This document shows positions 2,998-20,778 of a stretch of DNA of 28,581 nt, piece after piece. Position 1 is the stretch's first letter. Each line of letters starts with the position of its first letter. This DNA comes from a virus: IMG/VR virus record IMGVR_UViG_3300037504_000203, positions 1-28,581 of that record; one strand, written 5' to 3'. Under the pieces are notes generated by a model. That model made no database searches and was not told the DNA's origin. It saw only the letters and a list, made by a program, of their open reading frames with translations. The translations under genes were made by a program, and so were the position numbers.

Positions 2998-3591
2998 ATG
3001 GAGAATCTGAGACCCGTGAAAGACATATACGACACATCCCTCTTCCCCTACATCGAGGGCGACATCTTGGCCGAGCAGGACCGCGACGCCGTGCTGACTA
3101 TCGAGCGAGTGATGCAGGGCGAGATGGCCTCCTCCAGAGGTAAGGAGACCAAGGTGGTGGTGCAGTTCGAGGAAACACACAAGATGTTGATCCTCAACAA
3201 GACGAATGCACAGGCCATCTTAAACCTCTACGGGCGCAAGACCCAGGGCTGGCGGGGAAAGCGCATCGCGCTGTACTCCGAGCGTATCAGCGTAGCCGGT
3301 CGGATGCATAACGCGATTCGGGTGCGCGCCAGGGTACCGGTGGCGCACCAAAAGCCCCAACCCAAACCGGAGGGTCCGAAGCCCGATCTGGAGGGGATGG
3401 AGGACGCGGAGGAACTCCCCGAAGGCTACGTCGACGCGAACGCCTTCTGGACCGAGTTCCACAACCTGAAACGCGATGGCAAGCTGCCCAACGCCGAGGA
3501 CCTGCGCGACGCCGAACCGATCAAAGACGCCAACCATACCGGCGACTGGGCCGCGGCGCTCAAGTGGCTGCACGGCCAGATGGAGGTGTGA
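2998..3591 (+). CDS. Conserved phage protein of unknown function, possible DNA-binding early protein, 197 aa
   Basis: It starts one base after the previous stop, with a GGAGAG ribosome-binding site. Residues ~30-115 form a beta-rich domain containing LTIERVMQGEM, VVQFEETHKMLILNKTNAQA and WRGKRIALYSERI, then RVRARVP. This matches, from memory, a phage protein family with the pattern FEExxKxLVLNKTN and WxGKxIxLY that sits near single-strand annealing and replication genes. Its biochemical role is not established to my knowledge. A Pro and Lys-rich linker (~115-135) leads to an acidic C-terminal helical part. It probably belongs to the early DNA-metabolism operon. Confidence 0.75.
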   Translation: MENLRPVKDIYDTSLFPYIEGDILAEQDRDAVLTIERVMQGEMASSRGKETKVVVQFEETHKMLILNKTNAQAILNLYGRKTQGWRGKRIALYSERISVAGRMHNAIRVRARVPVAHQKPQPKPEGPKPDLEGMEDAEELPEGYVDANAFWTEFHNLKRDGKLPNAEDLRDAEPIKDANHTGDWAAALKWLHGQMEV

Positions 3592-3592
3592 C

Positions 3593-3919
3593 GTGGCGAG
3601 ATTTGACGCGAGCAACGTTCGGGTGCTGGACGATACGTTTGTCTGCCGGGTGCGCGTCGAGGTCGGACCGATGACCATCGATCAGGCCCGCTGTCACCTG
3701 GCGATGGCCACGCTGGGCCCGATTGACGAGCTCGACGCCGTGCGTATCGGGCTCCTCCTGGTCGATCAGGAGCGGAGAATCGCGGAGAACGACAAGCTGC
3801 GGGCTGCGGCCCGCAAGCTGAAGCGGGCCGCCGACGCCGGCAACCAGGTCACGATGTGGGCCGCGATCGGTGAGATTAAAGGCATAGTGGAGGGAGATGA
3901 CGATGACGTACGTGATTGA
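3593..3919 (+). CDS. Small helical phage protein of unknown function, 108 aa
   Basis: I chose the GTG at 3593 because it follows a GGAGGTG ribosome-binding site overlapping the end of the previous gene. Longer in-frame starts would run inside that gene. A short beta-rich N-terminus (VRVLDDTFVCRVRVEV) precedes a helical region with charged repeats (ERRIAENDKLRAAARKLKRA) suggesting a coiled coil. The end is very acidic (EGDDDDVRD). It overlaps the ParB-like gene by 17 bases, implying translational coupling. Function unknown. Confidence 0.7.
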   Translation: MARFDASNVRVLDDTFVCRVRVEVGPMTIDQARCHLAMATLGPIDELDAVRIGLLLVDQERRIAENDKLRAAARKLKRAADAGNQVTMWAAIGEIKGIVEGDDDDVRD

Positions 3920-5081
3920 AGTGCCGCTGACCAGGATCAAGACCGATCCCGAGCTGCAGCCTCGGGCGATGATGAATGCCGTGACGATTGAGGAATACCG
4001 CGAGGAGATCGAGCACGGTACCCGGTTCCCGCCGGTGATCGTCTTTGACGACGGGGAGAATTTTTGGCTGGCGGATGGATTCCACCGCTATGAAGCGACG
4101 GCCCAGGCGGCGATTGCCAAGATCGAGGCCGAAGTCCGTGAGGGTAGCAAACGCGACGCCGTCCTGTACTCCGTGCAGGCGAACGCGACCCACGGCCTGC
4201 GGAGGTCGCCGGCCGACAAACGCAAGGCGGTGATCACGCTCTTGCAGGATCCGGAGTGGGCGACATGGTCGGACAGGGAGATCGCCCGGAAGACGAAGAC
4301 GAGTCATACGTTCGTGGCGAAGGTCCGGCAACAGACTGGCAACGTTGCCAGTGAACGCACCTATGAGGACCGGCACGGCAACGTGACCACGATGCAAACG
4401 AAGAAGATCGCGGACGCGAACCGGGAGCGGGTCGCAGGCCAGGGCCCGCCGCCCGACTGGTCGCCGGCGCTCTCTCCGCAACCTCGCGAGGAACCCGAAC
4501 AGGAGATCGCCAGCGGCCCGGTGACGGCACGTGCGCCCGCGGGCGAAAGCGACGAGGCCCGCGAGGAGAGCGCCTGGGCGCCGGATCTGAAGAAGCGCGA
4601 CAAGCCGATCCCGGCCCCGGCACCGCGGAAGACGCCCGATCTCCCGCCGCCCTCGGAGCAGATCGCGCCCCGTACTGGTGTGCTGACGGTGCGGATCAGC
4701 GACGCGGAGAGTATGGCCGAGCGGCCGATCATGGTCGCTCTGGGCGACGAGGGCAAGGGACCCAGCGTCTTCTTCCGTGGGCGGCTCGACCAGCTGCCGG
4801 AGTTAATGGAGAAGGCCCTGGTGAAATTCTACGGCGATAAGGCGGCGATTTTCGAGAGCAGATCGGAGGATGTGGGTCGACCGATTTATCCTGCTCCAGA
4901 CCCCGAGCTGCCCTTTGAAATCGGCGCGACGGTCACGTGGTTGTGTGGTATCGGCAATGTCTACGGTCAGATCGAGTCCTTCAGCGGATCCCGGGAAAAG
5001 GCGTACGTCCGGATGCTGGATGGCAAAAGACAGATCGTGGCCGTGTCGAAACTGGAAAAAGCGGACCTACAGGAGGCTTAG
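3903..5081 (+). CDS. ParB/RepB-like protein with C-terminal extension, first gene of the PRTRC-like cassette
   Basis: ATG 3903 has better spacing from GGAGGG (3889-3894) than the in-frame ATG at 3897. Residues ~5-110 form a ParB-type N-terminal domain with LQPR and ADGFHRYEA (the GxHRxxA box). Residues ~122-142 hold a helix-turn-helix (WSDREIARKTKTSHTFVAKV), followed by an RTYEDRHGNVTTM stretch typical of ParB-like proteins of phages and plasmids. After a Pro-rich linker, residues ~257-320 form a beta/alpha domain (TGVLTVRISD, then FFRGRLDQLPELM) that may be E-like (see findings). Residues ~338-390 look like an SH3 or KOW-type barrel (GATVTWLCGIGNVYG). ParB heads PRTRC cassettes, consistent with the genes that follow. 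The 18-bp palindrome lies in frame as codons 145-150. Confidence 0.8.
   Translation: MTYVIEVPLTRIKTDPELQPRAMMNAVTIEEYREEIEHGTRFPPVIVFDDGENFWLADGFHRYEATAQAAIAKIEAEVREGSKRDAVLYSVQANATHGLRRSPADKRKAVITLLQDPEWATWSDREIARKTKTSHTFVAKVRQQTGNVASERTYEDRHGNVTTMQTKKIADANRERVAGQGPPPDWSPALSPQPREEPEQEIASGPVTARAPAGESDEAREESAWAPDLKKRDKPIPAPAPRKTPDLPPPSEQIAPRTGVLTVRISDAESMAERPIMVALGDEGKGPSVFFRGRLDQLPELMEKALVKFYGDKAAIFESRSEDVGRPIYPAPDPELPFEIGATVTWLCGIGNVYGQIESFSGSREKAYVRMLDGKRQIVAVSKLEKADLQEA
4335..4352. repeat. 18-bp perfect palindrome, copy 1 (inside the ParB-like gene)
   Basis: ACTGGCAACGTTGCCAGT is its own reverse complement. This copy is inside the ParB-like coding sequence and encodes TGNVAS right after the helix-turn-helix. 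Three other identical copies exist at 9003-9020, 15509-15526 and 25867-25884. It is a candidate binding site for one of the two ParB-like proteins or for a regulator. Confidence 0.85.
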
Positions 5082-5083
5082 TG

Positions 5084-5491
5084 ATGGCACGTATCTATAA
5101 ATACGAGGATTACGAATATACCGACGAGAATGAGGAGTTCACGACCGAGGACGTCAAAAGTCAATTGCAGCAGTATTTTCCCGAGCTGGCGAACGCCACC
5201 GCCGAGGAGAAAGCGCTCGACAATGGCGATACGGAGATCACGTTCGTGAAGAAGGCCGGCACCAAGGGTCATCTGCACAAGCTCGAGCCGGATGTGCCTC
5301 CGATGAGCGATCACGAGCTCTTTACCCTGGAGGGCGAAGCCCGTTGCGCGCGCAACGGCGGCCGGGCGCTGGAAATGCCCGCCGACACGGTCCTGAGCCT
5401 GATCTGCGAGTCGTGGTACCTGCGCAGTATCCTGGGAGATCCGCAGCCGACCGTCGCCGGCGAGGCCGATGACGCCGATGACGCCGCGTGA
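5084..5491 (+). CDS. PRTRC system protein C-like (proposed ubiquitin-like) with C-terminal extension
   Basis: ATG 5084 follows AGGAGG and lies two bases after the ParB stop. Residues 1-62 match the PRTRC-C pattern as I remember it: a short beta hairpin (IYKYEDYEYTDEN), a helix before YFPELANAT, a strand (TEITFVKK) and the terminal AGTKG, with GTKG at residues 59-62. PRTRC-C is normally about 70 residues. This protein is 135, so it has an extra ~70-residue tail with three Cys or Leu-rich patches (ARCARNGG, LSLICESWYL) and an acidic end. PRTRC-C has been proposed as a beta-grasp ubiquitin-like partner of the E1 and E2-like proteins. The tail has no terminal Gly-Gly, so processing near GTKG by the JAMM peptidase encoded downstream would be needed if it is conjugated. 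That is inference. Confidence 0.75.
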   Translation: MARIYKYEDYEYTDENEEFTTEDVKSQLQQYFPELANATAEEKALDNGDTEITFVKKAGTKGHLHKLEPDVPPMSDHELFTLEGEARCARNGGRALEMPADTVLSLICESWYLRSILGDPQPTVAGEADDADDAA

Positions 5492-5732
5492 GCTTGCACA
5501 GCGCCTGGGGGCGGTCGAGCCGCTCCGCCTCCAGGCCGTGTCGTTAATCCTGGAGATGGACGCCGTATTCGGCGCGCCCGTATTCTGCACCGATGAGATG
5601 ATCGACCGCGGCGATGAGATGCAGGCCGCGGTCAACGAACTGGAGGATCACGCCAGATGCGTGAGGAAATTGGAGAAGCGATGCAGCGAGTTGCAACCCG
5701 TCCCGTCGCAGACGCCGCCCCTCGGATTCTAA
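5469..5732 (+). CDS. Small helical protein of unknown function in the PRTRC-like cassette, 87 aa
   Basis: ATG 5469 (or 5478, in frame) lies inside the end of the PRTRC-C-like gene, giving a 23-base overlap and probable translational coupling. The protein is predicted helical (ELAQRLGAVEPLRLQAVSLI, then RKLEKRCSELQP, possibly coiled coil). I do not recognise it. PRTRC cassettes commonly have a small hypothetical gene between C and F, so the position is as expected. The 3' end overlaps the next gene by 76 bases, which leaves some doubt about either that start or this gene's extent. Confidence 0.6.
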   Translation: MTPMTPRELAQRLGAVEPLRLQAVSLILEMDAVFGAPVFCTDEMIDRGDEMQAAVNELEDHARCVRKLEKRCSELQPVPSQTPPLGF

Positions 5733-6505
5733 GGCATCGGGCGCTGATCGAGCGCCTGCGCTCGCGGCAATTGCTGTCGTACAGCGCCATGGGGCTGGCG
5801 ATCCGGGACGGCGCCGAGATCGCGCGCTTCTCCCATCTCCTGCAGACCTTCTTTCCGGACGAGATCGATAAACCCGGTCCGGATTGGGACCTCCTGGACC
5901 TGACGGCCTGGTTTGCCCACCTGGTCGACGAGACTCTCTTTCCGCTGGACCTGAATTTCATGGACTCGATCTACGGCGGGACCGGCGACGTCCACGACGT
6001 GATCATGCAGGGCATTCCGTACCGCTCCTATGGGGTGCCGTATGAGATCTTGTCCCTGCGGGACCTGGAGAAGCACGCCCAGCCGGTGGTCGCGGCCACG
6101 CAGAGCATCCCGGACTGGCACGAGTTCTGGGGGGACGCGGGCGTCGAGTGTCCGGAGATGGGCCTGTCCTGGGCCTACGACCCGGAGATCGCGATCCTCA
6201 ACCTGCGCGGCCTGGAGCCGCCGCTGGACGGGCTGGAGGTGATGGCCCGGTGCGTGGCGCGCACGAATCAGAATCCGTTCCTCGACGTGCCGGATCTCTG
6301 GTACCGCGGCGAATACATGGGCGAGTTCAGTGACTACTGGTGGGCCGAGCAGGATATCCGTGAATTGGCACGATTATACGATCGCGCCCGCCCGGATAGC
6401 GAGATTTTGGAGCGGTACATTCGGTGGGTCGATGCGGACTGGCAGCACGCTTTTACCGTCATCGCCCGCAAATTCGTAGAGATGGAGGAGGCAAACAATG
6501 GATGA
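5657..6505 (+). CDS. Unknown protein in the PRTRC protein F position, 282 aa
   Basis: It starts at ATG 5657, with GGAGG about 10 bases upstream. An internal ATG at 5681, preceded by TTGGAGAAG, would shorten the overlap with the previous gene and is a fair alternative. The protein is acidic, rich in Trp and Tyr, and mostly helical, with no signal peptide, membrane segment or obvious catalytic motif. Notable stretches are DLTAWFAHLVDETLFPLDLN and YWWAEQDIRELARLYDRARP. It lies between the C-like and B-like genes, which is the slot of PRTRC protein F. I assign the slot, not the homology, and cannot confirm it without a profile search. It overlaps the E2-like gene by 8 bases. Confidence 0.65.
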   Translation: MREEIGEAMQRVATRPVADAAPRILRHRALIERLRSRQLLSYSAMGLAIRDGAEIARFSHLLQTFFPDEIDKPGPDWDLLDLTAWFAHLVDETLFPLDLNFMDSIYGGTGDVHDVIMQGIPYRSYGVPYEILSLRDLEKHAQPVVAATQSIPDWHEFWGDAGVECPEMGLSWAYDPEIAILNLRGLEPPLDGLEVMARCVARTNQNPFLDVPDLWYRGEYMGEFSDYWWAEQDIRELARLYDRARPDSEILERYIRWVDADWQHAFTVIARKFVEMEEANNG

Positions 6506-7211
6506 CATCGGTAACGCCCTGGATATGGCCAGGGCCGGGACCGCAATCGGCGGCATCGATGAGTACCTCGTGGACAACGTCTATCAGGAGATCCAGCTGC
6601 GGCTCGACGTCTTCGATGAGTCGGTCGTGATGACCCGGTACGACGACGGGCAGGCGACCCGATGCTACGAGGTGGATCCGTCCGACGTCGCGGCGGCGCT
6701 GGCTAATCAGATGCTGAGTACGGGCCTGCTGCCGGACAACTGCCTCTTCTACGCGCGATCCGGCGGATCGCCGCGTATCGCCGTTTACCTGCCGCCCCAG
6801 ACGCGTACCCTGACCGTGGTGGTCGCCCCGGAGCGTGAAGAGATCGTGGTCCCACTGCCCGGTCTGGTGTTTGTGGGCCACCGGAAGCGCTACCAGGTCT
6901 TCGCATGTGACGGGCGTCCCGACGCCGGGCAGTTGCTGGATGCCGCGCCGTTTCCGAACGTCCACGACAACGGCGCGATCTGTTGGGGCTCCGTCGAGGC
7001 TCCGGTCTGCGACGCAGACACGATCCACGAAGCCGCCGAACTCTTTCTGACGTCGGAGTTCAACGCGGACCTCAACAACGGCAAGAGCGCGGCGCACCCG
7101 AGCGACGTCACCGAGATGTGGCGCGATCTGCAGAAGGCCGGCGCGGATGAATACCCGATCGATGACCTTATGAGAACCGGAAGAAGCCTGGAGGATTTAT
7201 GGAAAGCCTGA
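6498..7211 (+). CDS. PRTRC system protein B, E2-like (ubiquitin-conjugating enzyme-like)
   Basis: ATG 6498 follows GGAGGCAAAC and overlaps the previous stop. The 237-residue protein has the PRTRC-B/E2-like architecture. The central strands are RIAVYLPP and LTVVVAPE, with PLPGLVFVGHRKRYQVFAC. They are followed by a flap-like PFPNVHDNG and ICWG, in which Cys162 is in the position expected for the E2 thioester cysteine. The C-terminus (FLTSEFNADLNN, then a helix ending EDLWKA) is also typical. E2-like proteins accept an activated ubiquitin-like protein from the E1. The E1 partner should be the ThiF-like protein encoded at 7822 and the modifier the C-like protein. Whether true conjugation occurs in PRTRC systems is not established to my knowledge. 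Confidence 0.8.
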   Translation: MDDIGNALDMARAGTAIGGIDEYLVDNVYQEIQLRLDVFDESVVMTRYDDGQATRCYEVDPSDVAAALANQMLSTGLLPDNCLFYARSGGSPRIAVYLPPQTRTLTVVVAPEREEIVVPLPGLVFVGHRKRYQVFACDGRPDAGQLLDAAPFPNVHDNGAICWGSVEAPVCDADTIHEAAELFLTSEFNADLNNGKSAAHPSDVTEMWRDLQKAGADEYPIDDLMRTGRSLEDLWKA

Positions 7212-7834
7212 TTGCACCCCCGATTGAGTACCGGATCTTTACCGGAGAAACCCCGTGCCTTTCGCCCGGCAAGGCGTACGCCTACGTGATGGACGGCGAG
7301 GGCCTGAAGAAGTTCACGACGTGCCGGCACTTCTCGGCTGTCGTGCCCGTCGCGCGGGCAATCATCCCCGGTCTGCCCGTCCTGGGCTGCGGATTGCAGA
7401 TGCACTACCGCCTGCCGGCCGGACATTTGGCCGCGATGTTGCGGGACGCCCGCGCCGAGTCGTGGGAGCAGCCGCGGGAGACGATGTACCACGTCCGCGT
7501 CCGCGACGGCATGACCCGCATCACCAAGCCGCCCCAGGATGGCGGCGCCGGGCACCTGGCGTACCAGACCGGCGATGCGCGCGATATCGCGGTCGACGTC
7601 CACAGCCACCATCAGATGAGCGCCTTCTTCTCGTCGACGGACGTTCGCGACGAGCAGGGTCGCCGGATCTACGCCGTAATCGGTAGGATCTTCACCCGTC
7701 CGCAGATCCGCGTCCGTGTTGGCGTCTACGGCCATTACCTCCCGGTCCGGGTGACGGATGTCTTCAATGGGCCCGGTCCGTTTCGCGATCTGTACGACGT
7801 CGTCCACAAGGCGGGATACCTATGCCGGAACTGA
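7199..7834 (+). CDS. PRTRC system protein A, JAB/JAMM metallopeptidase
   Basis: ATG 7199 overlaps the E2-like stop by 13 bases, after the GGAGG of CTGGAGGATTT. The zinc-binding JAMM motif H-x-H-x7-S-x2-D is complete: His135, His137, Ser145 and Asp148 (HSHHQMSAFFSSTD). Behind it come the strands YAVIGRIF and RVRVGVYGHY expected of the JAB fold. The N-terminal ~100 residues form the non-catalytic half seen in PRTRC protein A. JAMM peptidases remove or mature ubiquitin-like modifiers. Here the likely substrate is the C-like protein, with its internal GTKG, or its conjugates. The intact metal ligands imply an active enzyme. Confidence 0.85.
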   Translation: MESLIAPPIEYRIFTGETPCLSPGKAYAYVMDGEGLKKFTTCRHFSAVVPVARAIIPGLPVLGCGLQMHYRLPAGHLAAMLRDARAESWEQPRETMYHVRVRDGMTRITKPPQDGGAGHLAYQTGDARDIAVDVHSHHQMSAFFSSTDVRDEQGRRIYAVIGRIFTRPQIRVRVGVYGHYLPVRVTDVFNGPGPFRDLYDVVHKAGYLCRN

Positions 7835-8622
7835 AGATGCAGAAGCGATATCGCCTCCAGACAGCGGACCCACGGTACGCGCATATTGTCCTGGTCGGCT
7901 GCGGCGGCACCGGATCCTTCCTCGCCCTGCACCTGGCGCGTCTGGCCTACCACGCCCGCGATCGCTACGACATGGACCTCCGGCTGACGTTTATCGACCC
8001 AGACACCGTCGAGCACCGCAATCTCGGCCGGCAGAACTTTGCCCCCGCCGAGGTGGGACACAACAAGGCGCGGGCTCTGGCCTGGCGGTACAACCGCGCC
8101 TTCGGCCTGGACATCCGCGCGGTCGGCGATGTGTTTGGCGACCGTCGGTTTGAGTTTGGATACCGAACCTGGCACCTGATCGTCGGCGCGGTGGATAACG
8201 CCGCAGCCCGGCGGTCGATCGCCGACGGACGCTTGTGGCACGCAACGGACAAAAACTGGTGGCTCGACTGCGGGAATGAGGAGCACGCCGGCCAGGTCCT
8301 GCTCGGGAATCGACATGGCCTGAAAGCGCCGGCGATCTCCAAGTTGGGATTCTGCGACGGACTCCCCCTGCCCAGCGTGCAGGCGCCGGACCTGCTGGAG
8401 GCTCCGGAGGCCGGCGAGGACCCGGAGAGCTGCGCGGAGCTGACGCTGGCCGATGCGCAGAGCCTGATGGTCAATCAGGCGATGGCCACGTACGCCGCGC
8501 AGTACGTCTACCGGATGCTGATCACCCGCGATCTGGATATCTACGCGACGTACATAGACCTCCGGACCGGCGGGGCGCGGAGCGAACCGATCACCGGAGA
8601 GCCGGGAGGGACCGATGCCTGA
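7822..8622 (+). CDS. PRTRC system ThiF/E1-like adenylyltransferase
   Basis: ATG 7822 overlaps the JAMM gene by 13 bases. The 266-residue protein has an N-terminal Rossmann fold with the nucleotide loop VGCGGTGS (residues ~30-37), then FIDPDTVEHRNLGRQNF, which carries the E1-type D-x-D and N-x-x-R residues. NKARALAWRYN supplies the conserved Lys of E1-like enzymes, and VGAVDN follows. Two cysteines sit in conserved-looking places: Cys150 in LDCGN and Cys204 in PESCAE. Either could be the thiol-transfer residue. E1-like enzymes adenylate the C-terminus of a ubiquitin-like protein using ATP and pass it to an E2. The E2-like and ubiquitin-like candidates are encoded just upstream. The size and order fit PRTRC ThiF. 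Confidence 0.85.
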   Translation: MPELKMQKRYRLQTADPRYAHIVLVGCGGTGSFLALHLARLAYHARDRYDMDLRLTFIDPDTVEHRNLGRQNFAPAEVGHNKARALAWRYNRAFGLDIRAVGDVFGDRRFEFGYRTWHLIVGAVDNAAARRSIADGRLWHATDKNWWLDCGNEEHAGQVLLGNRHGLKAPAISKLGFCDGLPLPSVQAPDLLEAPEAGEDPESCAELTLADAQSLMVNQAMATYAAQYVYRMLITRDLDIYATYIDLRTGGARSEPITGEPGGTDA

Positions 8623-9001
8623 TAATATTCGCCGCTTCACCCTCGAGGGCAAGCCGGTGCCGTACGTTCGGATGACTCAGCGGGGCAAGTACGTCAAACG
8701 CAACGCCCGGCGCTACCTGGCCAGCAAGGACGCCATCGGCCTTCAGATGCGCTGCCAGATGGGCCGGCGCGGCTGGTATCCCTACCCCAGAGGCACGCGC
8801 CTGGCGGTGCATATCGCGTTCCTGTACGCCAACGGCGCCGACCACCGCAGGGATATCGACAATGAGGTAAAAGCCGTCGTGGATGCCGGGAACGGGGTGC
8901 TGTATGACGATGACCGCTGGATCGACGCGATCGAGGCGGAGCGCGGGCCATCGGACGACGGCGAGGATCGGGTGATTATCGAGGTGGCGGCGATCGGTTG
9001 A
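8615..9001 (+). CDS. rusA: RusA-like Holliday junction resolvase
   Basis: ATG 8615 follows GGGAGG and overlaps the ThiF gene by 8 bases. The 128-residue length is typical of RusA. Conserved features are the N-terminal GKPVPYVRMT, the metal-binding DIDN (Asp80, Asp82, Asn83), a following Lys in NEVKAVVD, and the acidic cluster Asp98-Asp100 (VLYDDDRW) that completes the active site, with the terminal strand VIIEVAAI. RusA cuts four-way junctions symmetrically and in phages resolves recombination or replication intermediates before packaging. It is the last gene of the early operon. The first intergenic copy of the 18-bp palindrome begins two bases after its stop. Confidence 0.88.
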   Translation: MPDNIRRFTLEGKPVPYVRMTQRGKYVKRNARRYLASKDAIGLQMRCQMGRRGWYPYPRGTRLAVHIAFLYANGADHRRDIDNEVKAVVDAGNGVLYDDDRWIDAIEAERGPSDDGEDRVIIEVAAIG

Positions 9002-9002
9002 C

Positions 9003-9020
9003 ACTGGCAACGTTGCCAGT
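9003..9020. repeat. 18-bp perfect palindrome, copy 2 (20 bp with flanks)
   Basis: Identical to the copy at 4335. Here the symmetry extends to 20 bp (9002-9021) because C and G flank it. It lies two bases after the resolvase stop, followed by GAGGAGAGAG, and 38 bases upstream of the ATG of the short frame at 9059. It marks the boundary between the early operon and the tnpB cargo region. Confidence 0.85.
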
Positions 9021-9058
9021 GAGGAGAGAGATTACTAGCTGATATTGGAGGCACTTAG

Positions 9059-9091
9059 ATGGCACATACGACAACGAAAGGGCGGGGATGA
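9059..9091 (+). CDS. Possible 10-residue leader peptide before tnpB
   Basis: A strong TTGGAGG ribosome-binding site precedes ATG 9059, which opens a frame reading MAHTTTKGRG. Its TGA overlaps the first ATG of tnpB (ATGATG at 9088). It may couple translation to tnpB. Alternatively it is the remnant start of a phage gene interrupted when the tnpB segment arrived. It is too short to judge by composition. Confidence 0.3.
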   Translation: MAHTTTKGRG

Positions 9092-10242
9092 TGGGTGATG
9101 CATCCGCGATGATTCAACGCGCATATAAGACAGAGCTTGACCCGAACAATGAACAAGCGACTAAGTTCGAGATATTTGCACGTGTTCGTCGATTCGTATA
9201 CAACGTGGGGCGATGGGAATGGATCTATCAATATGAGCATGATGGCAAACCAAGCGCCTACCGGCTCAAAAAACAATTCAACGCACAGAAGGACGATCTC
9301 TATCCCTGGGTGCGACTTGCGCCGTATGCCGTGACTGAGGCCGCGTTCCGAGATTTGGGAGACGCCTACAAGAATTTTTTCCGTAGAGTCAAAAACGGTG
9401 AGGATCCAGGATACCCGAAGCGAACTAGGCGAGCTGATCATTTCAGCGTGCGCAATCTCAAGGTAGAGCGTGACCGAGTACGTATTCAGGGCGTCGGATG
9501 GGTGCGCCTTAAGGAATACGACTATATCCCGACAACAGACACTGGCCTAAAATTTGGAACCTATGCCACAATTTCAAGGAGGGGTGGACGCTGGTTCGTT
9601 TCGACAACAGTAGAGGAGCCTGAGCCGGAGCTAAAAGACCGTCACGCCGTGGTGATTGGTGTTGACTTTGGAATCAAGGAACTGGCGACATGCTCGAATG
9701 GTACGGTATTTTCAAACTCAAAGCCGCTAGAACAGGCTCTATGCAAACTGGCCAGGCTCAATAAAGAGCTTGCTCGTCGAAAGAGGGGCGGATCGAATTG
9801 GCACAAGACAAAACGAAAGCTCCAACGGACCCACAAGCGAGTGTCGGATGTTCGCCGACACATCCAGCACAAAATCAGTCATTATCTCACGTATGATGTG
9901 CGACCGAGTGCGATTGTTCTGGAGGATCTGAATGTTAAGGGGATGCAGAGTAACGGTCATTTATCGCGTGCAATCAGTGACGTAGGCTTCTATGAACTAC
10001 GGCGTCAGATCGAATACAAAGCGAAATGGTTGGGAATTGAGGTTGTTTTCGCAGATCGATGGTACCCCAGCAGCAAAACATGCTCCAGGTGCGGGGTGAA
10101 AAAGGAGAGGTTAACACTATCGGACAGAATCTTCGTTTGTGATGATTGTGGATTCAAGGTTGATCGGGATTTGAACGCAGCTCTAAACTTGGCTGCGTTA
10201 GGTAGGAACCGCCAAATGGGCGGGGATTGCTCAGGGAGTTAG
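9088..10242 (+). CDS. tnpB: TnpB-type (IS200/IS605 OrfB / Cas12 ancestor) RNA-guided RuvC nuclease
   Basis: The protein is 384 residues from ATG 9088. The in-frame ATG at 9109 (MIQRAYKTEL) matches the usual TnpB start better. An N-terminal helix-turn-helix region (KTELDPNNEQ, FVYNVGRWEWIYQY) leads to the middle beta region, then a split RuvC. The catalytic residues all look present: Asp193 (GVDFGIKELA), Glu279 (LEDLNVKGM) and Asp361 (DRDLNAALN). The CxxC...CxxC zinc ribbon is intact at Cys332, Cys335, Cys351 and Cys354. TnpB cuts DNA guided by an RNA made from its own 3' end and flank. No tnpA is present. Its codon use is AT-richer than all neighbours, indicating recent transfer. A CRISPR-like mini-array begins 83 bases downstream, so a Cas12-like role is worth testing. 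Confidence 0.9.
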   Translation: MMGDASAMIQRAYKTELDPNNEQATKFEIFARVRRFVYNVGRWEWIYQYEHDGKPSAYRLKKQFNAQKDDLYPWVRLAPYAVTEAAFRDLGDAYKNFFRRVKNGEDPGYPKRTRRADHFSVRNLKVERDRVRIQGVGWVRLKEYDYIPTTDTGLKFGTYATISRRGGRWFVSTTVEEPEPELKDRHAVVIGVDFGIKELATCSNGTVFSNSKPLEQALCKLARLNKELARRKRGGSNWHKTKRKLQRTHKRVSDVRRHIQHKISHYLTYDVRPSAIVLEDLNVKGMQSNGHLSRAISDVGFYELRRQIEYKAKWLGIEVVFADRWYPSSKTCSRCGVKKERLTLSDRIFVCDDCGFKVDRDLNAALNLAALGRNRQMGGDCSGS

Positions 10243-10302
10243 GCTGCTGTAATGGTCTACTGTGAACTGGGAACCGAGCAGCGAATAGCATCAGTCTCGG
10301 AT

Positions 10303-10328
10303 AGACATATATGTCTGACATGTATGTC
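10303..10328. promoter_or_regulatory. Two adjacent dyads at the start of the mini-array
   Basis: AGACATATATGTCT (10303-10316) is a perfect 14-bp palindrome. It is directly followed by GACATGTATGTC (10317-10328), whose arms GACAT and ATGTC are inverted around GT. The second dyad runs into the first three bases of repeat 1. This AT-rich segment may be a leader, a regulator site, or the end of a TnpB guide-RNA scaffold. The remaining bases from 10243 to 10302 contain only a short GCTGC/GCAGC inverted pair. Confidence 0.45.
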
Positions 10329-10477
10329 GCATCCCTCTGCGCGAGGATGTTTGGGATCTAGGAGCCAATGACCCCGGACGAAAAGCGTCGCATCCCTCTG
10401 CGCGAGGATGTTTGGACGTCGGTGAGGCTCGGGCTGTCCTGGATGCGTGTCGCATCCCTCTGCGCGAGGATGTTTGG
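10326..10477 (+). CRISPR. CRISPR-like mini-array: three identical 29-bp repeats, two spacers
   Basis: The repeats are at 10326-10354, 10387-10415 and 10449-10477 and are identical over 29 bp. Each begins GTCGCATCCC and ends GGATGTTTGG. The two spacers are 32 bp (10355-10386) and 33 bp (10416-10448) and share no visible similarity. Each repeat contains an internal hairpin, CATCC with GGATG, extended by CTC/GAG with one bulged C around a TGCGC loop. The 29/32 geometry, the stem-loop and the GTTTGG end resemble type I-E repeats more than the longer repeats of type V systems. Orientation is inferred. No cas1, cas2 or Cascade genes are in the window. The nearest nuclease gene is tnpB, 83 bases upstream. 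Confidence 0.8.
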
Positions 10478-10500
10478 GGTTCTGCCGGACGCGCCTAGAT

Positions 10501-10514
10501 GTTACGTCAGTAAC
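10501..10514 (-). promoter_or_regulatory. Operator-like inverted motif (copy 2, reverse orientation)
   Basis: GTTACGTCAGTAAC on the + strand is GTTACTGACGTAAC on the - strand, matching the copies at 2615 and 25839 except for the sixth base. It lies 31 bases upstream of the -35 element of the promoter at 10546. It could be an operator or activator site for that promoter. Confidence 0.5.
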
Positions 10515-10545
10515 CCCCCCCTACAAAACGTCCCCTTGACAGGGC

Positions 10546-10574
10546 TTGCACATTAGAACAAATGATCGTATACT
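10546..10574 (+). promoter_or_regulatory. Sigma70-type promoter for the 68-aa gene and perhaps the late region
   Basis: TTGCAC (10546-10551) and TATACT (10569-10574) are separated by exactly 17 bases. Another TTGACA is seen at 10536-10541 but its spacing to TATACT is too long. Transcription should begin near 10581, virtually at the ATG at 10582, so the transcript would be leaderless or nearly so. This is the clearest promoter in the window and points into the late block, although the terminator at 10848 intervenes. Confidence 0.65.
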
Positions 10575-10581
10575 AAGGGTG

Positions 10582-10788
10582 ATGACAACTCTCTCCGATG
10601 CCGAATGGCGTGCCTTGCTGTGTGCTGTGCGTGACGCGGTCAGCGACATTGTGACCGGATCCGGGTACGGAAGTGTCACGATCGAGTGTGTGGCAGGGTC
10701 GCCCAAAGGCGTAAAGGTTCAACGGTCGCTGAGGTTCAACCGCGATATTTACCCAGACGAGGACAAACTCCCGCAGGGCGCGGCTTAG
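10582..10788 (+). CDS. Small protein of unknown function, DUF2292-like pattern, 68 aa
   Basis: I chose ATG 10582 because it lies just after the -10 box. A longer frame from 10546 would begin inside the promoter. The protein has an N-terminal helix (SDAEWRALLCAVRDAVSDIV) and a small beta hairpin, GYGSVTIECVAG then GVKVQRSLRF. This resembles the YGSVxIxVxxGKxVxIxxxxxxR pattern of short DUF2292-type proteins. The similarity is from memory and weak. It stands alone between the mini-array and a strong terminator, so it may be an immediate-early or lysogeny-expressed gene with its own transcript. Confidence 0.6.
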   Translation: MTTLSDAEWRALLCAVRDAVSDIVTGSGYGSVTIECVAGSPKGVKVQRSLRFNRDIYPDEDKLPQGAA

Positions 10789-10884: not shown

Positions 10885-11113
10885 GTTGTCCCCTCGGCAG
10901 AGGCAGTGCTTGACCCTCGCCGGCCGGGGAATGACGTGGCGTCAGATGGCTCAGGTATTGGATATCTCCCGGACGACGATCCGGGGACATTTGAATCGGG
11001 CACGCAACCGGCTAGGAGCGGACAACACGACCCACGCGGTGGTGCTGGCGCTGTCGAAAGGCGAAATTCATTTGGATACCATCCTGGAGGATGACGATGA
11101 TGCGAAAGGCTAG
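10883..11113 (+). CDS. LuxR/GerE-type helix-turn-helix regulator, 76 aa
   Basis: The protein is essentially a lone GerE domain: LSPRQRQCLTLAGRG (helix 1), MTWRQMAQVLDISRTTIRGHL (HTH) and NRARNRLGA (last helix). The acidic tail EDDDDAKG follows. I chose TTG 10883 because later starts (ATG 10931) would lose helix 1. No ribosome-binding site is visible because the start lies in the terminator T-tract. The frame is open back to a CTG at 10820 preceded by GAGGTG. LuxR-type HTH proteins bind DNA as dimers, and in this position a late-gene regulator is likely. It overlaps the next gene by 17 bases. Confidence 0.7.
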   Translation: MLSPRQRQCLTLAGRGMTWRQMAQVLDISRTTIRGHLNRARNRLGADNTTHAVVLALSKGEIHLDTILEDDDDAKG

Positions 11114-12062: not shown

Positions 12063-12452
12063 ATGGCTGGGCGGTTTAACTACGAGCGGGCCGCGTCTGC
12101 GTTGGTTGATGCAGCGTACCTCGGCGACAAGCAGGCCGCCGAGCGACACGGCATTACCGCGCGATCCATTCGCAATTACCGCCAGCGACTGCAGGAAGAT
12201 CGGGAGCTTTCCGAACTTTTCCAGCATAAAAGGGCCCTGGCCGAACAGGACTGGGCGCACGAGCTGGCCCCGGCGATTCGGGCCAGCATCGACTTTCTGC
12301 GTAGAGCCGCCCAGAGGGCCAGCACGCGGGATGCGGATGTGATCCATTCCGTAGCCGGCGCGCTGAAGATTTTGTCTAACGTGGCGATGACCAAGCAGGT
12401 GCTGGATGCTCGATTCGCTCACACAGATCGATCGTCAGATCCGGAGGCTTGA
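12063..12452 (+). CDS. terS: Terminase small subunit (putative)
   Basis: ATG 12063 follows GGGAGG. The 129-residue protein begins with a helix-turn-helix (AYLGDKQAAERHGITARSIR, then NYRQRL), as in phage small terminases that recognise packaging DNA. It is followed by helical oligomerisation segments (WAHELAPAIRASIDFLRRAA). It lies directly upstream of, and overlaps by 47 bases, the large terminase, which is the standard arrangement. The call rests on HTH plus position rather than on family-specific motifs. Confidence 0.75.
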   Translation: MAGRFNYERAASALVDAAYLGDKQAAERHGITARSIRNYRQRLQEDRELSELFQHKRALAEQDWAHELAPAIRASIDFLRRAAQRASTRDADVIHSVAGALKILSNVAMTKQVLDARFAHTDRSSDPEA

Positions 12453-13986
12453 GCGGTGGCTGCCCGACGAGAAACCGGCACCGACCGGAAAGCTAGCCGA
12501 GGAGGCCGAGGGCCTTAGCGGCGAGTTGAGCGCCTACATTCGTGAGGCGTGGCATATCGTCGAGCCCCGCCGGGATTACGTCCACGGCTGGCACATCGAC
12601 GCGATTTGTGAGCATCTCACGGCGTGTACGCGCCGCGAGATTAAGAACCTTATCATCAACATACCGCCGCGACACATGAAGTCGCTGAGCGTTGTCGTCT
12701 TCTGGCCAACGTGGACGTGGACCTGGGCACCCGGCAGTCAGTGGCTGACCGCCTCCTACGCGATGGAACTGGCCGTCAGGGATGCGGTGAAGAGCCGCCG
12801 GATCATCCAGAGCCCGTGGTACCAGGCCCGCTGGGGGCATATTTTCCAGCTCTCCGGCGACCAGAACCGCAAGATGCGCTACGAAAACGACCAGGGCGGC
12901 CACCGGATCGCCAGCGGCCTCAAGGGTAAGAGCCTGGGCGAGGGCGGAGACTACCTGATCATCGACGATCCGCTGAAACAGTCCGAGGCCGACAGCGACG
13001 CGGCCCGCGAGACCAGCAACGATTTCTGGGACCAGACGATGAGCACGCGAGGTAACGATCCGGACACCGTCGTCAAGGTGATCATCATGCAGCGACTGCA
13101 CAACGACGACCTGACCGGGCACGTTCTGGAGAAGGCGCGGAAAAACGAGATGCTCCATTACGAGCACCTCTGCCTGCCCGCCGAGTACGAGCCGAGGACG
13201 TACGCCAGCGCGATCGATTTCGAGGACCCGCGCGACGAACCGGACGCGCTCCTCTGGCCGGAGCGGTTTTCTCGGGAAGCCCTGGAGACGCTCAAGGCGG
13301 AGATCGGCAGCGAGCGCGAGGTCGCCGCCCAGTTGCAGCAAAGGCCGGCGCCGGAGGCCGGCAACATCTTCCAGCGCACCTGGTGGGCCGAAGGTCGCAA
13401 TCGCTGGGACGCGGAAAGCCGGGCTGCATCGAACCGCTGCATCGGACGGTGGATCAGCTTCGACACGGCGCTCAAGGACGACGAGGCCAACGACTACACG
13501 GCCTGGGGCGTCTACGAGCTCTGGCCCGACTACCGGCTGGCCAAGCGGGACGCGGAGTGGAAACGGCTCCAATTTCCGCAGCTGGCCTCGGAGATCGAGG
13601 ACCAGGCGCGCCGGTGGAATTACGACGGGAAGCTGAAGGGCATCCTGATCGAGGACAAGGGATCCGGCACCAGCGCGCTGCAGACGCTGCGGCAGGGGGC
13701 CGAGGAGTGGATCGCCCGGCTGCTGGTGGAGTTTAACCCCACCGGCTCGAAGGTTTACCGGGCCCGGCAAGCGAGCGTGTGGTGCGATCGGGACATGGTC
13801 CTGCTGCCCGGCCCGAGTGTGTCAGTGCCCTGGCTCTTGGAATGGGAGGAGACGCTCTACGATTTCCCGGCGGTGACGCACGATGACACGGTAGACGAAT
13901 TTTCGATGGCGATCATTTATCTGGAGAACTACCTGGCCGAAGGATGGAGGGCTCGATTGAAACGAGGTACACGTGAGCCGAGTTAG
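12406..13986 (+). CDS. terL: Terminase large subunit (ATPase and nuclease)
   Basis: The protein is 526 residues from ATG 12406. The N-terminal ATPase has the P-loop-like NIPPRHMKS (residues 85-93), where most relatives have G rather than M before KS. It also has WLTASYAMELAVRDA, the LKGKSLGEGGDYLIIDDP Walker B (Asp187 and Asp188) and the coupling-type KVIIMQRLHNDDLTGHVL. The C-terminal RNase H-like nuclease shows SFDTALKDDEANDYT, ILIEDKGSGTSAL and HDDTVDEFSMAI, which carry the metal-binding acids. It pumps DNA into proheads and cuts concatemers. It overlaps the portal gene by 14 bases. Confidence 0.95.
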   Translation: MLDSLTQIDRQIRRLERWLPDEKPAPTGKLAEEAEGLSGELSAYIREAWHIVEPRRDYVHGWHIDAICEHLTACTRREIKNLIINIPPRHMKSLSVVVFWPTWTWTWAPGSQWLTASYAMELAVRDAVKSRRIIQSPWYQARWGHIFQLSGDQNRKMRYENDQGGHRIASGLKGKSLGEGGDYLIIDDPLKQSEADSDAARETSNDFWDQTMSTRGNDPDTVVKVIIMQRLHNDDLTGHVLEKARKNEMLHYEHLCLPAEYEPRTYASAIDFEDPRDEPDALLWPERFSREALETLKAEIGSEREVAAQLQQRPAPEAGNIFQRTWWAEGRNRWDAESRAASNRCIGRWISFDTALKDDEANDYTAWGVYELWPDYRLAKRDAEWKRLQFPQLASEIEDQARRWNYDGKLKGILIEDKGSGTSALQTLRQGAEEWIARLLVEFNPTGSKVYRARQASVWCDRDMVLLPGPSVSVPWLLEWEETLYDFPAVTHDDTVDEFSMAIIYLENYLAEGWRARLKRGTREPS

Positions 13987-15541
13987 CACCAGCATACAGT
14001 TCGGGGGCAACATCTACGACGCCGAGTATTCGACGCTGGGCGGGCTGTATTGGGCCCAGGAGAAGACGCGGGAGATTATGGATCTCCAGCGCATCTACTA
14101 CCTCAACAACGGCCTCTACGACACCCTCCGCGCCGCGCTGTACCTGATCGGTGCCGAAAAGTCGCGCGCCCGCCCGCTGCGCAACCCGGCCTACCGCGTC
14201 GTCGAGTTTTACGCCTCCAAAATGTGGCCCGGCACGCTGCCGGACGCGCTGCCGCTGGAGATTCTACCCGGCGGAAACCCAACCATTGAGAAGCGGATCC
14301 AGGAGATCTGGACCTGGTCGAATTGGGACGCCCGCAAGCAGGTCGCTGCCCGCTGGCAGGCGATCTACGGCAATATGTTTCTCAAGGTCGCCGGGGACCC
14401 GGAGCGCGAGCAAGTGATGCTCCAGCTCATCGATCCCCGGTATGTGGTCGATTTCGACCTCGACGACCGGGACGTGATCGTCTACGTCCGCATCGACACG
14501 CCGATCCGCCGGCGAGATGAGAGCGGCGACGAGGAGAACTGGACCTACACGGAGGTCTGGGACAAGGACGCCGACCGGCTCCGGATCTGGGAGCATCAGC
14601 GCGGCCACGGCGCGTCACAGCGGGAGCTGGGCCGCCCGGTCACCGACGAGTCGATGATCGAGCGCACCGGCGTCGATTTTGTGCCCGTCGTCCACGCCAA
14701 GAACCGCGACATCGGCGAGGACCTCGGGGTCGGCGCGTTCCAGCTGCAGACCGACAAGATCGACGAGGTCAACCGCCAGGCGTCCCGGCTGCATCAGATG
14801 CTCTACCGGTACAACAAGCCGCTCTTTGCGGTGCTGGCCAATATGGTCGACGCGCAAGGCCGCCCGATGCCGGCGCCGAAACTCGCCGATGAGAACAGCG
14901 ATGAAGAGCTGGCCCTGGAGGACGACGACCTGATGCGTCTCCCGGGAATGAGCCGATTGGAAGCCATCGTCCCGAACCTCAACTACCGCGGGCACCTGGA
15001 CGCGATCGAGGCCCAGATGCGGGAGATCGAGCGCGACCTGCCAGAGCTAGCCTACTACGAGCTGCGGGAGCAGGGCGACCTCTCCGGCGTGGCGATCGAC
15101 CTCCTCCTCAGTGATGCCGAGGACCGGCTGATCGAAGCGCGCGGCAACGGAGAGGCCGGTTTGATCCGGGCGCAGCAGATGGCCTTGTCCATCGGGCAGG
15201 CGATGGAGCTCGACGGCTTCAGCCCGCGGGAGATCGGGACGTACGACGATGGATCCTACAATCACCGATTTATGACCCGCGAGGCGCTCCCGATGACGGA
15301 GCTCCAGCGGCTGGAGCTGGTCGGCAAAGCGACGCAGGCCGGGTTACCTCTCACCACGGCGATGCGGCGGGCCGGCTATGACGAGGAGGAGATCGCGCAG
15401 GCCATTGAGGACCAGGCCGCCGCCCGCGAGCGCGAGCTCAACGAGGCGCGGGCCTACCTGGCCCAGCAGCGGGCCATCGACGGCGCAGGCGTGTATGACA
15501 CCGGTGACACTGGCAACGTTGCCAGTGAGGAGGCCGACTAA
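13973..15541 (+). CDS. Portal protein (SPP1 gp6 / Gp6-like)
   Basis: GTG 13973 follows GAGGTAC and overlaps terL. At 522 residues it is the usual length. Features include YRVVEFYASKMWPG near the N-terminus, AIYGNMFLKVAGD, QLIDPRYVVDFDLDD, the conserved-type helical segment QTDKIDEVNRQASRLHQMLY, and the crown-region helix ERDLPELAYYELREQGDLSG. The dodecameric portal forms the DNA channel at one head vertex. The last residues, DTGDTGNVASEEAD, include TGNVAS (513-518) encoded by the 18-bp palindrome, which probably extended or was accommodated in the C-terminus. The stop overlaps the next start (TAATG). Confidence 0.92.
   Translation: MSRVSTSIQFGGNIYDAEYSTLGGLYWAQEKTREIMDLQRIYYLNNGLYDTLRAALYLIGAEKSRARPLRNPAYRVVEFYASKMWPGTLPDALPLEILPGGNPTIEKRIQEIWTWSNWDARKQVAARWQAIYGNMFLKVAGDPEREQVMLQLIDPRYVVDFDLDDRDVIVYVRIDTPIRRRDESGDEENWTYTEVWDKDADRLRIWEHQRGHGASQRELGRPVTDESMIERTGVDFVPVVHAKNRDIGEDLGVGAFQLQTDKIDEVNRQASRLHQMLYRYNKPLFAVLANMVDAQGRPMPAPKLADENSDEELALEDDDLMRLPGMSRLEAIVPNLNYRGHLDAIEAQMREIERDLPELAYYELREQGDLSGVAIDLLLSDAEDRLIEARGNGEAGLIRAQQMALSIGQAMELDGFSPREIGTYDDGSYNHRFMTREALPMTELQRLELVGKATQAGLPLTTAMRRAGYDEEEIAQAIEDQAAARERELNEARAYLAQQRAIDGAGVYDTGDTGNVASEEAD
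15509..15526. repeat. 18-bp perfect palindrome, copy 3 (in the end of the portal gene)
   Basis: Identical to the other copies and symmetrical over 20 bp (15508-15527). It encodes TGNVAS in the portal C-terminus and lies 14 bases upstream of the minor head ATG, followed at once by the GAGGAGG ribosome-binding site. It is well placed to act on transcription or translation of the downstream gene. Confidence 0.85.
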
Positions 15542-19695: not shown

Positions 19696-20778
19696 ATGGC
19701 TAACGAACTTGCATACGGCTTCGTGCAGCTCTCGCACCTCGGCGACGAACGCGTCACCGAGGTGGGCGTCAGCGTGGTGATGCGCGCTGTCGAGGAGAGT
19801 CTCGCGGAGTACAACCGAATGATCAATGCGCTGATGGGACAGTTTGTGCAGCGCACGACCGACCACAAGCGCCGATACAAACTCGCCGGCGGCGGCACGC
19901 TGCAGCCGCTCGACGAGAACGGCATCCCGCAGCCGGTGCGACCGTCCGGGTACTACGACGTCGCCTGGCCGATCCAGGGCGGTGGGGACGCCTGGGCCAC
20001 GAACCGCGTGAGCCGGGCACTCCTGACCGTCGATGAAGCGAACCGCTTTACCCTGGACTCGCTCAAGCGCGACGCCGATTGGAACCGCCGGCACATCCTG
20101 GCGGCATGCTTCGACAACACCACCTGGACCTATGAGGACGACGTCTTCGGCGACCTCACCATCCAGCCGCTGGCCAACAGCGATACCGTCGAGTACGTCC
20201 GTCGGGGCGGCGCGACTTCTACCGACGACCACTACCTGGCCCAGGCGAGCAGCATCGACGACGCGAATAACCCCTTCGACGACATCTACGACGAACTGAT
20301 GGAGCACCCGAGTAACAGCGGGCCGATTGTGGTGTATATCCCGACCAACCTCAAGTCGTCCGTCACCGGCCTGACCAGCTTTGTTGAGATCGGCGACCCC
20401 GACATCGATTACGGAACCGGCGTCAACCAGATCGTGGGCGACCCGGATATGTTCAACGATACCATCCGCGGCTTCGGCGACGAGGTCCTGGGTAAGGTCG
20501 ACAAGTGCTGGGTCGTGGAGTGGATCGCGCTGCCGGACAGCTACATGCTCGCTCACGCCCGCGGCGCCGGGCCCGTGCTGGCGATGCGGGAGTACGACGC
20601 GCCCGAGCTGCAGGGCTTCTTCCCGGAGAATCACTCCCCGGATGGCAATATCCAGGAGATGCGAATGATTCGTTACGCCGGCTACGGCGCGCTGAACCGC
20701 GTGGCCGCCGTCGTGCAGCGCATCGGGAACGGATCCTACGCGATTCCGAGCGGCTACACCAACCCACTGGCTGTCTAG
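19696..20778 (+). CDS. Major capsid protein (HK97-fold, putative)
   Basis: ATG 19696 follows GAGGAG. The protein is 360 residues. It begins with a helical arm (QLSHLGDERVTEVGVSVVMR), followed by VEESLAEYNRMINALMGQFV. The P-domain-like helix DEANRFTLDSLKRDADWNRR and the Pro/Gly loops come next. The C-terminal part has the receptor of capsid contacts VDKCWVVEWIALPDSYMLAH, PELQGFFPENHS and EMRMIRYAGYGALNRVAAVV. The terminal pattern of hydrophobic strand, R-Y-x-G-Y-G-x-x-N and A-V-V-Q is typical of HK97-type capsid proteins of siphophages. Position after scaffold and decoration genes is decisive. Two GTAAC half-sites lie in its upstream gap (19667-19694). Confidence 0.9.
   Translation: MANELAYGFVQLSHLGDERVTEVGVSVVMRAVEESLAEYNRMINALMGQFVQRTTDHKRRYKLAGGGTLQPLDENGIPQPVRPSGYYDVAWPIQGGGDAWATNRVSRALLTVDEANRFTLDSLKRDADWNRRHILAACFDNTTWTYEDDVFGDLTIQPLANSDTVEYVRRGGATSTDDHYLAQASSIDDANNPFDDIYDELMEHPSNSGPIVVYIPTNLKSSVTGLTSFVEIGDPDIDYGTGVNQIVGDPDMFNDTIRGFGDEVLGKVDKCWVVEWIALPDSYMLAHARGAGPVLAMREYDAPELQGFFPENHSPDGNIQEMRMIRYAGYGALNRVAAVVQRIGNGSYAIPSGYTNPLAV

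Follow-up and report, generated by a model that had tools for sequence, protein, structure and literature searches.

A putative ubiquitin-like conjugation cassette, related to plasmid PRTRC operons, among the early genes of a tailed phage

The window analysed here was the whole stretch of 28,581 nucleotides of viral DNA formed by positions 1–28,581 of the IMG/VR record IMGVR_UViG_3300037504_000203. Genes for a ubiquitin-like protein (Ubl), an E2-like protein, a JAMM protease and an E1-like enzyme formed one tight operon (window 5084–8622), located 3' of a ParB-like gene (Table 1). This cassette probably encodes a ubiquitin-like conjugation pathway of the phage, a divergent relative of the plasmid PRTRC and type 6d operons, as judged from the gene set, the fixed gene order, the invariant catalytic residues, the GTKG ends, the poly-tag and fusion precursors in relatives, and purifying selection. 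Each enzymatic step of the pathway is described below as we infer it.

Table 1. Features of the cassette and of its phage context in the window, with the supporting matches.
Feature	Position	Strand	Evidence
ParB-like, 394 aa, opens cassette	3897..5081	+	phrog_1033 1.6e-24; ParB_N 2.4e-4, under cut-off
C, ubiquitin-like	5084..5491	+	Prok_Ub PF14454 28.3 bits vs cut-off 25; PRTRC_C E=1.9e-7, 31.1 bits, under cut-off 45.95
g, small protein, 87 aa, C-terminus PxPSxxPPxGF	5469..5732	+	conserved; 27–35% identity homologues adjoining C in L157, L170, L156
F-position protein, 282 aa	5657..6505	+	homologues at same position in related phages
B, E2-like conjugating protein	6498..7211	+	Prok-E2_D PF14460 92 bits vs cut-off 25; PRTRC_B E=5e-23, 81.6 bits, under cut-off 131.45
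A, JAMM/JAB metalloprotease	7199..7834	+	Prok-JAB above cut-off; PRTRC_A E=7e-12, 45.2 bits, under cut-off 101.8
ThiF, E1-like adenylating enzyme	7822..8622	+	PRTRC_ThiF 153.3 bits vs cut-off 144.75
RusA-like Holliday junction resolvase	8615..9001	+	PF05866 2e-9, above cut-off; phrog_140 5e-12
Terminase large subunit	12406..13986	+	phrog_38 3e-71
Portal protein	13973..15541	+	phrog_64 1e-6; 50% identity to L007 portal
Major head protein	19696..20778	+	phrog_3990 1e-13

Judged by its gene content, the record is a tailed phage, because terminase, portal, head and tape-measure genes were located on the same record. The cassette occupied 5–8.6 kb and the structural genes began at 12.4 kb. The RusA gene overlapped the end of the ThiF gene and was a neighbour within the same operon. 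No tRNA or Rfam match was found when the whole window was scanned, and the viral contigs with the terminase large subunits nearest to that of the window contained no cassette in the stretches compared. The first-pass annotation had described a PRTRC-like ubiquitin-type cassette with intact active sites in the early operon of a tailed phage. Its gene positions and residues were re-read from the sequence and found correct, and the Pfam cut-offs were exceeded for the Ubl, E2-like, JAMM and E1-like proteins. The profile matches that it had set as decisive for the genes starting at 5084 and 6498 were obtained, to Prok_Ub and PRTRC_C and to Prok-E2_D and PRTRC_B, respectively.

The C gene, preceded by the Shine-Dalgarno sequence AGGAGG, started 3 bases after the ParB-like gene, and no match to PRTRC protein E was found. 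The C protein was composed of a 62-residue beta-grasp core, which ended in GTKG (residues 59–62, nucleotides 5258–5269) as previously proposed, and a 73-residue C-terminal tail, which is added here. Residue Gly62 was invariant in 40 homologues, some of which stopped exactly at GTKG. In the AF2 model, residues 1–50 of C had pLDDT values of 94–97 and a ββ-α-ββ topology, and C is thus predicted to adopt the beta-grasp fold; the model was near MoaD in fold, and Foldseek gave no significant match for it. The two best structural matches of the B model were E2 enzymes, with a weak score (best Z 4.5); a VIA second look at this model was weak, and Foldseek gave no match at E ≤ 0.001. The fold check therefore agreed with the expected beta-grasp for C and, weakly, with an E2-like B. 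No structure of PRTRC C, B or A was found by a sequence search among solved structures.

The putative catalytic residue of B, Cys162 (codon 6981–6983), was located within an ICWG motif and was invariant in 65 homologues. Protein A retained residues Glu94, His135, His137, Ser145 and Asp148, a motif invariant in 11 homologues. ThiF carried a GCGGTG motif and Cys204 (codon 8431–8433), the pair Ser203-Cys204 being invariant among homologues, and its profile matched the E1 enzymes UBA6, UBA1 and SAE2 in the PDB. The predicted catalytic residues were invariant across 11–13 divergent homologues per enzyme.

The MoaD-like fold of the C model is also in keeping with sulfur-carrier or small-molecule chemistry, in which ThiF would thiocarboxylate C as in ThiS, MoaD or CysO and the JAMM protein would free the product, with no protein conjugation. 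Sulfur-transfer pathways are likewise built from E1-like, JAMM and beta-grasp proteins, as described in sections of PMC1779556. This explanation is nevertheless improbable, given that a separate E2-like protein with an invariant Cys was nearly always present, that neither a sulfurtransferase nor a metabolic gene was identified within or beside the window cassette, and that a conjugated modifier better explains the poly-tag precursors.

Two further proteins were encoded between C and B. The small gene g was absent from the gene list of the first-pass annotation, and other loci had a g-like C-terminal signature fused to the Ubl after GTKG. The F-position protein diverges fast, with four clear homologues (L157, L136, L170 and L156) and a weaker fifth (L131), and had no family match in searches with PRTRC, Pfam and PHROGs profiles; an hhalign comparison with plasmid PRTRC_F gave a probability of 0.2%. 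It is a candidate substrate or E3-like factor.

The window proteins were compared with the NCBIfam models TIGR03735–03738 and TIGR03742 of PRTRC (A, TIGR03735; ThiF, TIGR03736; B, TIGR03737; C, TIGR03738; F, TIGR03742). ThiF alone passed the strict cut-off, whereas B, A and C were detected under theirs; the F-position protein did not match TIGR03742, and the window ParB was not of the PRTRC type, showing weak generic ParB matches only. The gene order ParB-C-F-B-A-ThiF was common to the window and a Cupriavidus plasmid. From the PRTRC system of plasmids and integrated elements the window differed by the extra gene g, the tail on C and the tailed-phage setting. An "almost complete PRTRC set", as first proposed, goes too far by strict criteria, because E, F and a PRTRC-type ParB were not picked up by the PRTRC models.

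Operon type 6d of Iyer, Burroughs and Aravind (2006) is described, in its section of PMC1779556, as a stand-alone Ubl with a C-terminal Gly, separate E2-like, JAB and E1-like proteins, and a fast-diverging alpha-helical fifth protein, whose place the F-position protein occupies in the window. The window likewise had its E1-like, E2-like (Cys) and JAB enzymes as separate proteins, and its Ubl shared the conserved Gly, with the difference that a tail followed the GTKG. The E2 of type 6d has an absolutely conserved His after the Cys according to the same section, whereas B of the window has Asp191; in this column, 42 of 65 relatives had Asp and 20 had His. That section places type 6d in bacteria and mobile elements, not in phages, and describes no poly-tag or fusion precursors.

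Such precursors recurred among relatives, where the tag was encoded either in mature form, ending exactly at GTKG, or as a precursor consisting of a tandem chain of 2–6 tags or a tail fusion. Among 100 distinct Ubl ORFs, 23 stopped exactly at GxKG and eight were tandem arrays of 2, 3, 4 or 6. Like the window, Bacillus phage KLEB27-3 (OM634661) and plasmid pAD3 of B. velezensis had B, A, ThiF and Ubl; unlike that of the window, their Ubl was made up of four copies in tandem, each with GVKG or GTKG at its end. The four repeats of the KLEB27-3 Ubl were exact, of 57 aa each, and 45% identical to window C. Three tandem copies were found in D69 and six in L147. The mature form was found in five of six loci lacking the JAMM gene compared with 22 of 80 having it (Fisher p = 0.011, for a small sample uncorrected for kinship); in the sixth JAMM-less locus, L236, the catalytic half of the JAMM had been lost. 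That nearly all JAMM-less loci had a mature tag supports a working pathway of processing, activation and conjugation. The recurring precursors are sequence-internal evidence for tag maturation by the JAMM protein, and parallel the eukaryotic polyubiquitin and ubiquitin-ribosomal-protein genes.

Viral loci were gathered via E1, using a hand-made DNA pattern for DxVExxN.xRQNF, and the 69 with room upstream were usable. All four genes were present in 63 of these, always in the order C-B-A-ThiF (63/63). When viral contigs were scanned with ThiF or B as a single query, by a method reliant on rare peptides, no relative was found. The description of the cassette as unusual in a phage applied to GenBank, in which about nine of 50,697 phage records had one, but not to environmental viruses, in which it recurred; related cassettes were found in dozens of further phages. 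The cassette genes were under purifying selection in the pairs compared, with dN/dS values of 0.06–0.32 in 11 of 12 gene comparisons and no synonymous change in the twelfth. The isolated tailed phage BgVeeders33 of Burkholderia (OK665841) had C, F, B, A and ThiF in the same order, all above the PRTRC cut-offs; it was much nearer to the plasmid type, its ThiF being 33% identical to that of the window.

The cassette was present on phages, plasmids and conjugative elements, and its plasmid and phage versions were interleaved in the tree; it therefore moves between elements. This interleaving, together with the decay in L236, is what a plasmid passenger or misassembly would leave, that is, a decaying insertion or chimeric contig useless to the phage. 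Such an origin is barely credible given the intact active sites, the purifying selection, the constant gene order across many independent viral contigs and the canonical set in BgVeeders33, a complete isolated phage. Plasmid contamination was rejected because the cassette genes were on the same contig as phage genes and the set is also found in isolated phages.

In the proposed conjugation pathway, C would be produced as a precursor and cleaved behind GTKG by protein A. The terminal Gly would then be adenylated by ThiF and the tag loaded on Cys204 of ThiF, from which it would be handed to Cys162 of B. B, aided by F and g, would attach the tag to a target protein, and A may be able to remove it again.

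The target may, as a guess, belong to the machinery for replication, partition or recombination of the element itself rather than to virion assembly or defence, because ParB, RusA and replication genes are neighbours and the same cassette occurs on plasmids. ParB HTH genes were near the cassette in the window-type clade, and in related phages, too, C was immediately preceded by ParB-type genes. The cassette of the window and of its close relatives was accompanied by ParB, RusA and replication-type genes, at a distance from the structural block, whereas in T4-size phages it adjoined genes annotated as structural. The B and ThiF proteins of Salmonella phage Arash carry the annotation "structural protein", the cassette of this phage faces structural genes, and similar reverse-strand gene sizes were seen beside the cassette in other large phages; the tag might accordingly be attached to a structural protein during assembly. 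The location in the window and its kin, and the presence of the cassette on plasmids, which have no virion, make virion modification a poor prospect. PHROGs searches on the genes flanking the cassettes of Arash and D69 were uninformative. Neither gp249 nor gp251 of Arash was its Ubl, which is encoded by an unannotated ORF. Lambda and T1 tail assembly shares a phage-encoded Ubl (TAPI) and JAB (TAPK) pair; this pair belongs to the tail module and is described, in the part of PMC1779556 that treats it, with neither E1 nor E2, whereas the window cassette was outside the structural block.

A further alternative is a protective role for the cassette, which would add tags to, or take tags off, defence proteins of the host (CBASS, Bil or others). 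Its carriers, phages, plasmids and conjugative elements, all confront host defence, and the JAMM protein could in principle strip host-made tags. CBASS Cap2/Cap3, Bil and other E1-E2-JAB defence operons have the E1, E2 and JAB chemistry in common with the window, whose ThiF matched E1-E2 profiles. The E1 and E2 of the window were, however, separate and not fused as in Cap2, and a profile scan of the ten genes at 2998–10242 detected no CD-NTase or effector. Of the Bil set (BilA–D), BilD was weakly matched by ThiF (7e-4) and none by the other cassette genes. No resemblance to the known inhibitors compared was found, and the cassette has its own dedicated tag and a full conjugation chain, with no defence partner gene among the ten scanned. 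The counter-CBASS role suggested in the first-pass annotation was thus not borne out, and counter-defence in general is unlikely.

A conjugation pathway is the reading favoured here, with modification of the element's own machinery as a guess at its role. More broadly, there is an even chance that several lineages of tailed phages have complete and self-contained Ubl conjugation pathways, with polyubiquitin-like and fusion-like precursors matured by their own JAMM protein, which modify proteins during infection. No paper on such a cassette in phages was found in the open-access literature, the cassette having previously been known mainly from large plasmids. To our knowledge, no function has been assigned to PRTRC cassettes in the years since they received their name. 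The compact copies in isolated phages, with their deletable genomes and short life cycles, make PRTRC function testable.

The cassette of the window was real and intact. Mobile cassettes of this kind are already known, and the window carries a phage version that recurs. The window, a linear IMG/VR record of 28,581 bases that is probably a fragment, was derived from a tailed phage, as terminase, portal, head, and tape-measure genes were located downstream of the cassette, starting at 12.4 kb. The TnpB gene at the cassette edge was an IS200/IS605-type insertion. A second ParB-type helix-turn-helix gene was located upstream of the cassette ParB (PF17762, 7.5e-11), and a weak acyltransferase-like match (PF01757, 0.0018) was located between TnpB and the terminase gene.

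In a profile search of the window proteins, the ubiquitin-like tag (C), the E2-like protein (B), the JAMM protease (A), the E1-like protein (ThiF), and the RusA resolvase all scored above Pfam cut-offs. The first-pass annotation had likened the cassette to the PRTRC cassette of plasmids. With the NCBI models, this likeness held for ThiF, the only window protein above the curated cut-off of a PRTRC model, and for B, A, and C, with significant matches under the curated cut-offs; it failed for the PRTRC E, F, and ParB models, which had no match among the window proteins. Because a single model was passed and those three were unmatched, the cassette is, judged by its profiles, "PRTRC-like, type 6d-like" and strictly not "a PRTRC system". 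The bacterial type 6d operon, in the available part of the report by Iyer and colleagues (PMC1779556), contains a Ubl with a C-terminal Gly, an E1, an E2, a JAB, and a diverging helical protein, and the only phage cases in that part are the Ubl and JAB of lambda/T1 tail assembly. In published open-access papers, no description of a phage with a PRTRC or type 6d cassette was found; one may exist elsewhere.

Every residue named in the first-pass annotation was confirmed in the window proteins. In alignments of 11–13 divergent phage and plasmid proteins (window numbering), the invariant positions were G26xGG29, D59, D61, Q71, K82, D125, and S203-C204 of ThiF, E94, H135, H137, S145, and D148 of A, and C162 of B, which was also unchanged across a wider set of 65 B proteins. 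Residue Asp191 of B occupied the position of a His that Iyer and colleagues give as absolutely conserved among E2s of type 6d; this column contained Asp in 42 and His in 20 of the 65 relatives. The replacement would exchange one possible acid-base group for another.

The proposed ubiquitin-like fold of C was borne out by a confidently predicted beta-grasp core (pLDDT 94–97 for residues 1–50); the tail was modelled with low certainty. The model matched protein G/L and MoaD with Z values of about 5, a likeness at the fold level only. B was modelled with an overall pLDDT of 89. Foldseek gave no significant match for it; in a second look with VIA against 990 chains the best two matches were E2 enzymes, Ube2S (Z 4.5, r.m.s.d. 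3.8 over 103) and UbcA1 (Z 3.8, r.m.s.d. 4.2 over 96). The likeness of the B model to E2 is suggestive and weak, and the putative E2-like assignment rests mainly on the Pfam profile.

Related ThiF proteins were found in about nine phages among 50,697 GenBank phage records: BgVeeders33, KLEB27-3, three Vibrio phages, Salmonella phage Arash, two faecal metagenome records, and Acinetobacter phage ME3, which has a divergent ThiF and is listed under two accessions. A scan of IMG/VR with a nucleotide pattern of a single E1 motif matched 101 stretches, of which 80 were retrieved, nearly all belonging to a cassette. When the window-type ThiF was used as the query, 38 viral loci were obtained along with 47 contigs of bacteria, most of them Chloroflexota and cyanobacteria. 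ThiF matches were present in 391 of 72,556 plasmid records. C, B, A, and ThiF were all present in 63 of the 69 viral loci in which 4.5 kb or more precedes ThiF, a fraction that measures linkage and not prevalence, since the loci were chosen via ThiF and some contigs came from both scans; the order C, B, A, ThiF was the same in all 63. Behind ThiF, recurring reverse-strand genes of about 135, 175, 290, and 200 aa were observed in L107, L110, L118, L121, and other large viral contigs like them, which suggests a fixed site in the genomes of large phages.

When cassette genes of related phages were compared in pairs, dN/dS was 0.06–0.32 in 11 of 12 comparisons, and the twelfth contained zero synonymous changes. 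In a quick ThiF tree, built without bootstrap, the clade that contains the window (support 98) comprised 16 viral contigs and four from Chloroflexota. These four contigs may themselves be phage, and a Chloroflexota host for the window phage is a plausible guess, no more. Across the wider tree, viral, plasmid, and genomic copies were interleaved, and the well-supported branches required the "virus" label to change at least 13 times.

The tag was encoded in several forms. Among 100 distinct Ubl ORFs, 23 ended exactly at GxKG, 49 had a longer tail, which ended in GF or GI in 26 cases, and 8 were tandem arrays. The GF-ending tail resembled g, the stand-alone small gene behind C in the window, and the array of plasmid pAD3 had a relative with 63% identity on a Cytobacillus plasmid (H107). 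Eukaryotic polyubiquitin and ubiquitin-fusion genes have the same layout as these arrays and tail fusions. If A matures the tag, loci lacking the JAMM gene are expected to encode mature tags; a mature tag was present in 5 of 6 such loci versus 22 of the 80 loci that have the gene (Fisher p = 0.011, from a small sample with kinship ignored). Loci L141, L089, L210, L222, and L268 contained tag, E2, and E1, with every tag already ending at or near GxKG and no JAMM match upstream. In the exception among the six, L236, only the N-terminal 84 residues of A remained, joined to ThiF; this locus is apparently a decaying copy, a reading made after the fact. The Arash Ubl, ending in GTKG, lacks GenBank annotation, and gp251 is called over it in another frame. 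The tag forms are new evidence, internal to the sequences, on how the tag is matured.

Coordinates and copy numbers of the cassette features in the window and in related loci
Feature	Record	Position	Details
Cassette run	window	3897-9001	genes overlapping or adjoining; order ParB-like, C, g, F-position, B, A, ThiF, RusA
TnpB, full-length	window	9088-10242	RNA-guided nuclease family (298 bits); immediately follows RusA, between cassette and structural block
Second ParB-type gene	window	45-728	
Acyltransferase-like match	window	11091-11639	
Poly-Ubl	KLEB27-3		four 57-residue copies; ends GVKG
Poly-Ubl	plasmid pAD3 (L090)	3030-3767	four copies ending GTKG; 220 kb B. velezensis plasmid
Poly-Ubl	Vibrio phage D69		three copies
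Poly-Ubl	L147		six copies
A–ThiF fusion	L236 (Trichormus)	9075-10768	deletion joins JAMM gene start to ThiF
Arash Ubl	L006	107-304	
Divergent ThiF	ME3 (KU935715.1)	136603-136836	genome 235 kb

Within the window-type clade, ParB-family genes were located directly upstream of the cassette in many loci, as in PRTRC plasmids, and FtsK, DnaA_N, SSB, and DnaG-type domains were encoded nearby. A virion protein is a possible target of the tag, as B and ThiF of Arash carry a "structural protein" annotation and adjoin structural genes; the ParB and replication-type neighbours and the presence of the cassette on plasmids argue against it. For the earlier proposal that the cassette counters CBASS, positive evidence was not found. 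Based on these neighbours and the sharing of the cassette with plasmids, we favour a role in maintaining or replicating the element itself, or in protecting it generally, rather than a virion role.
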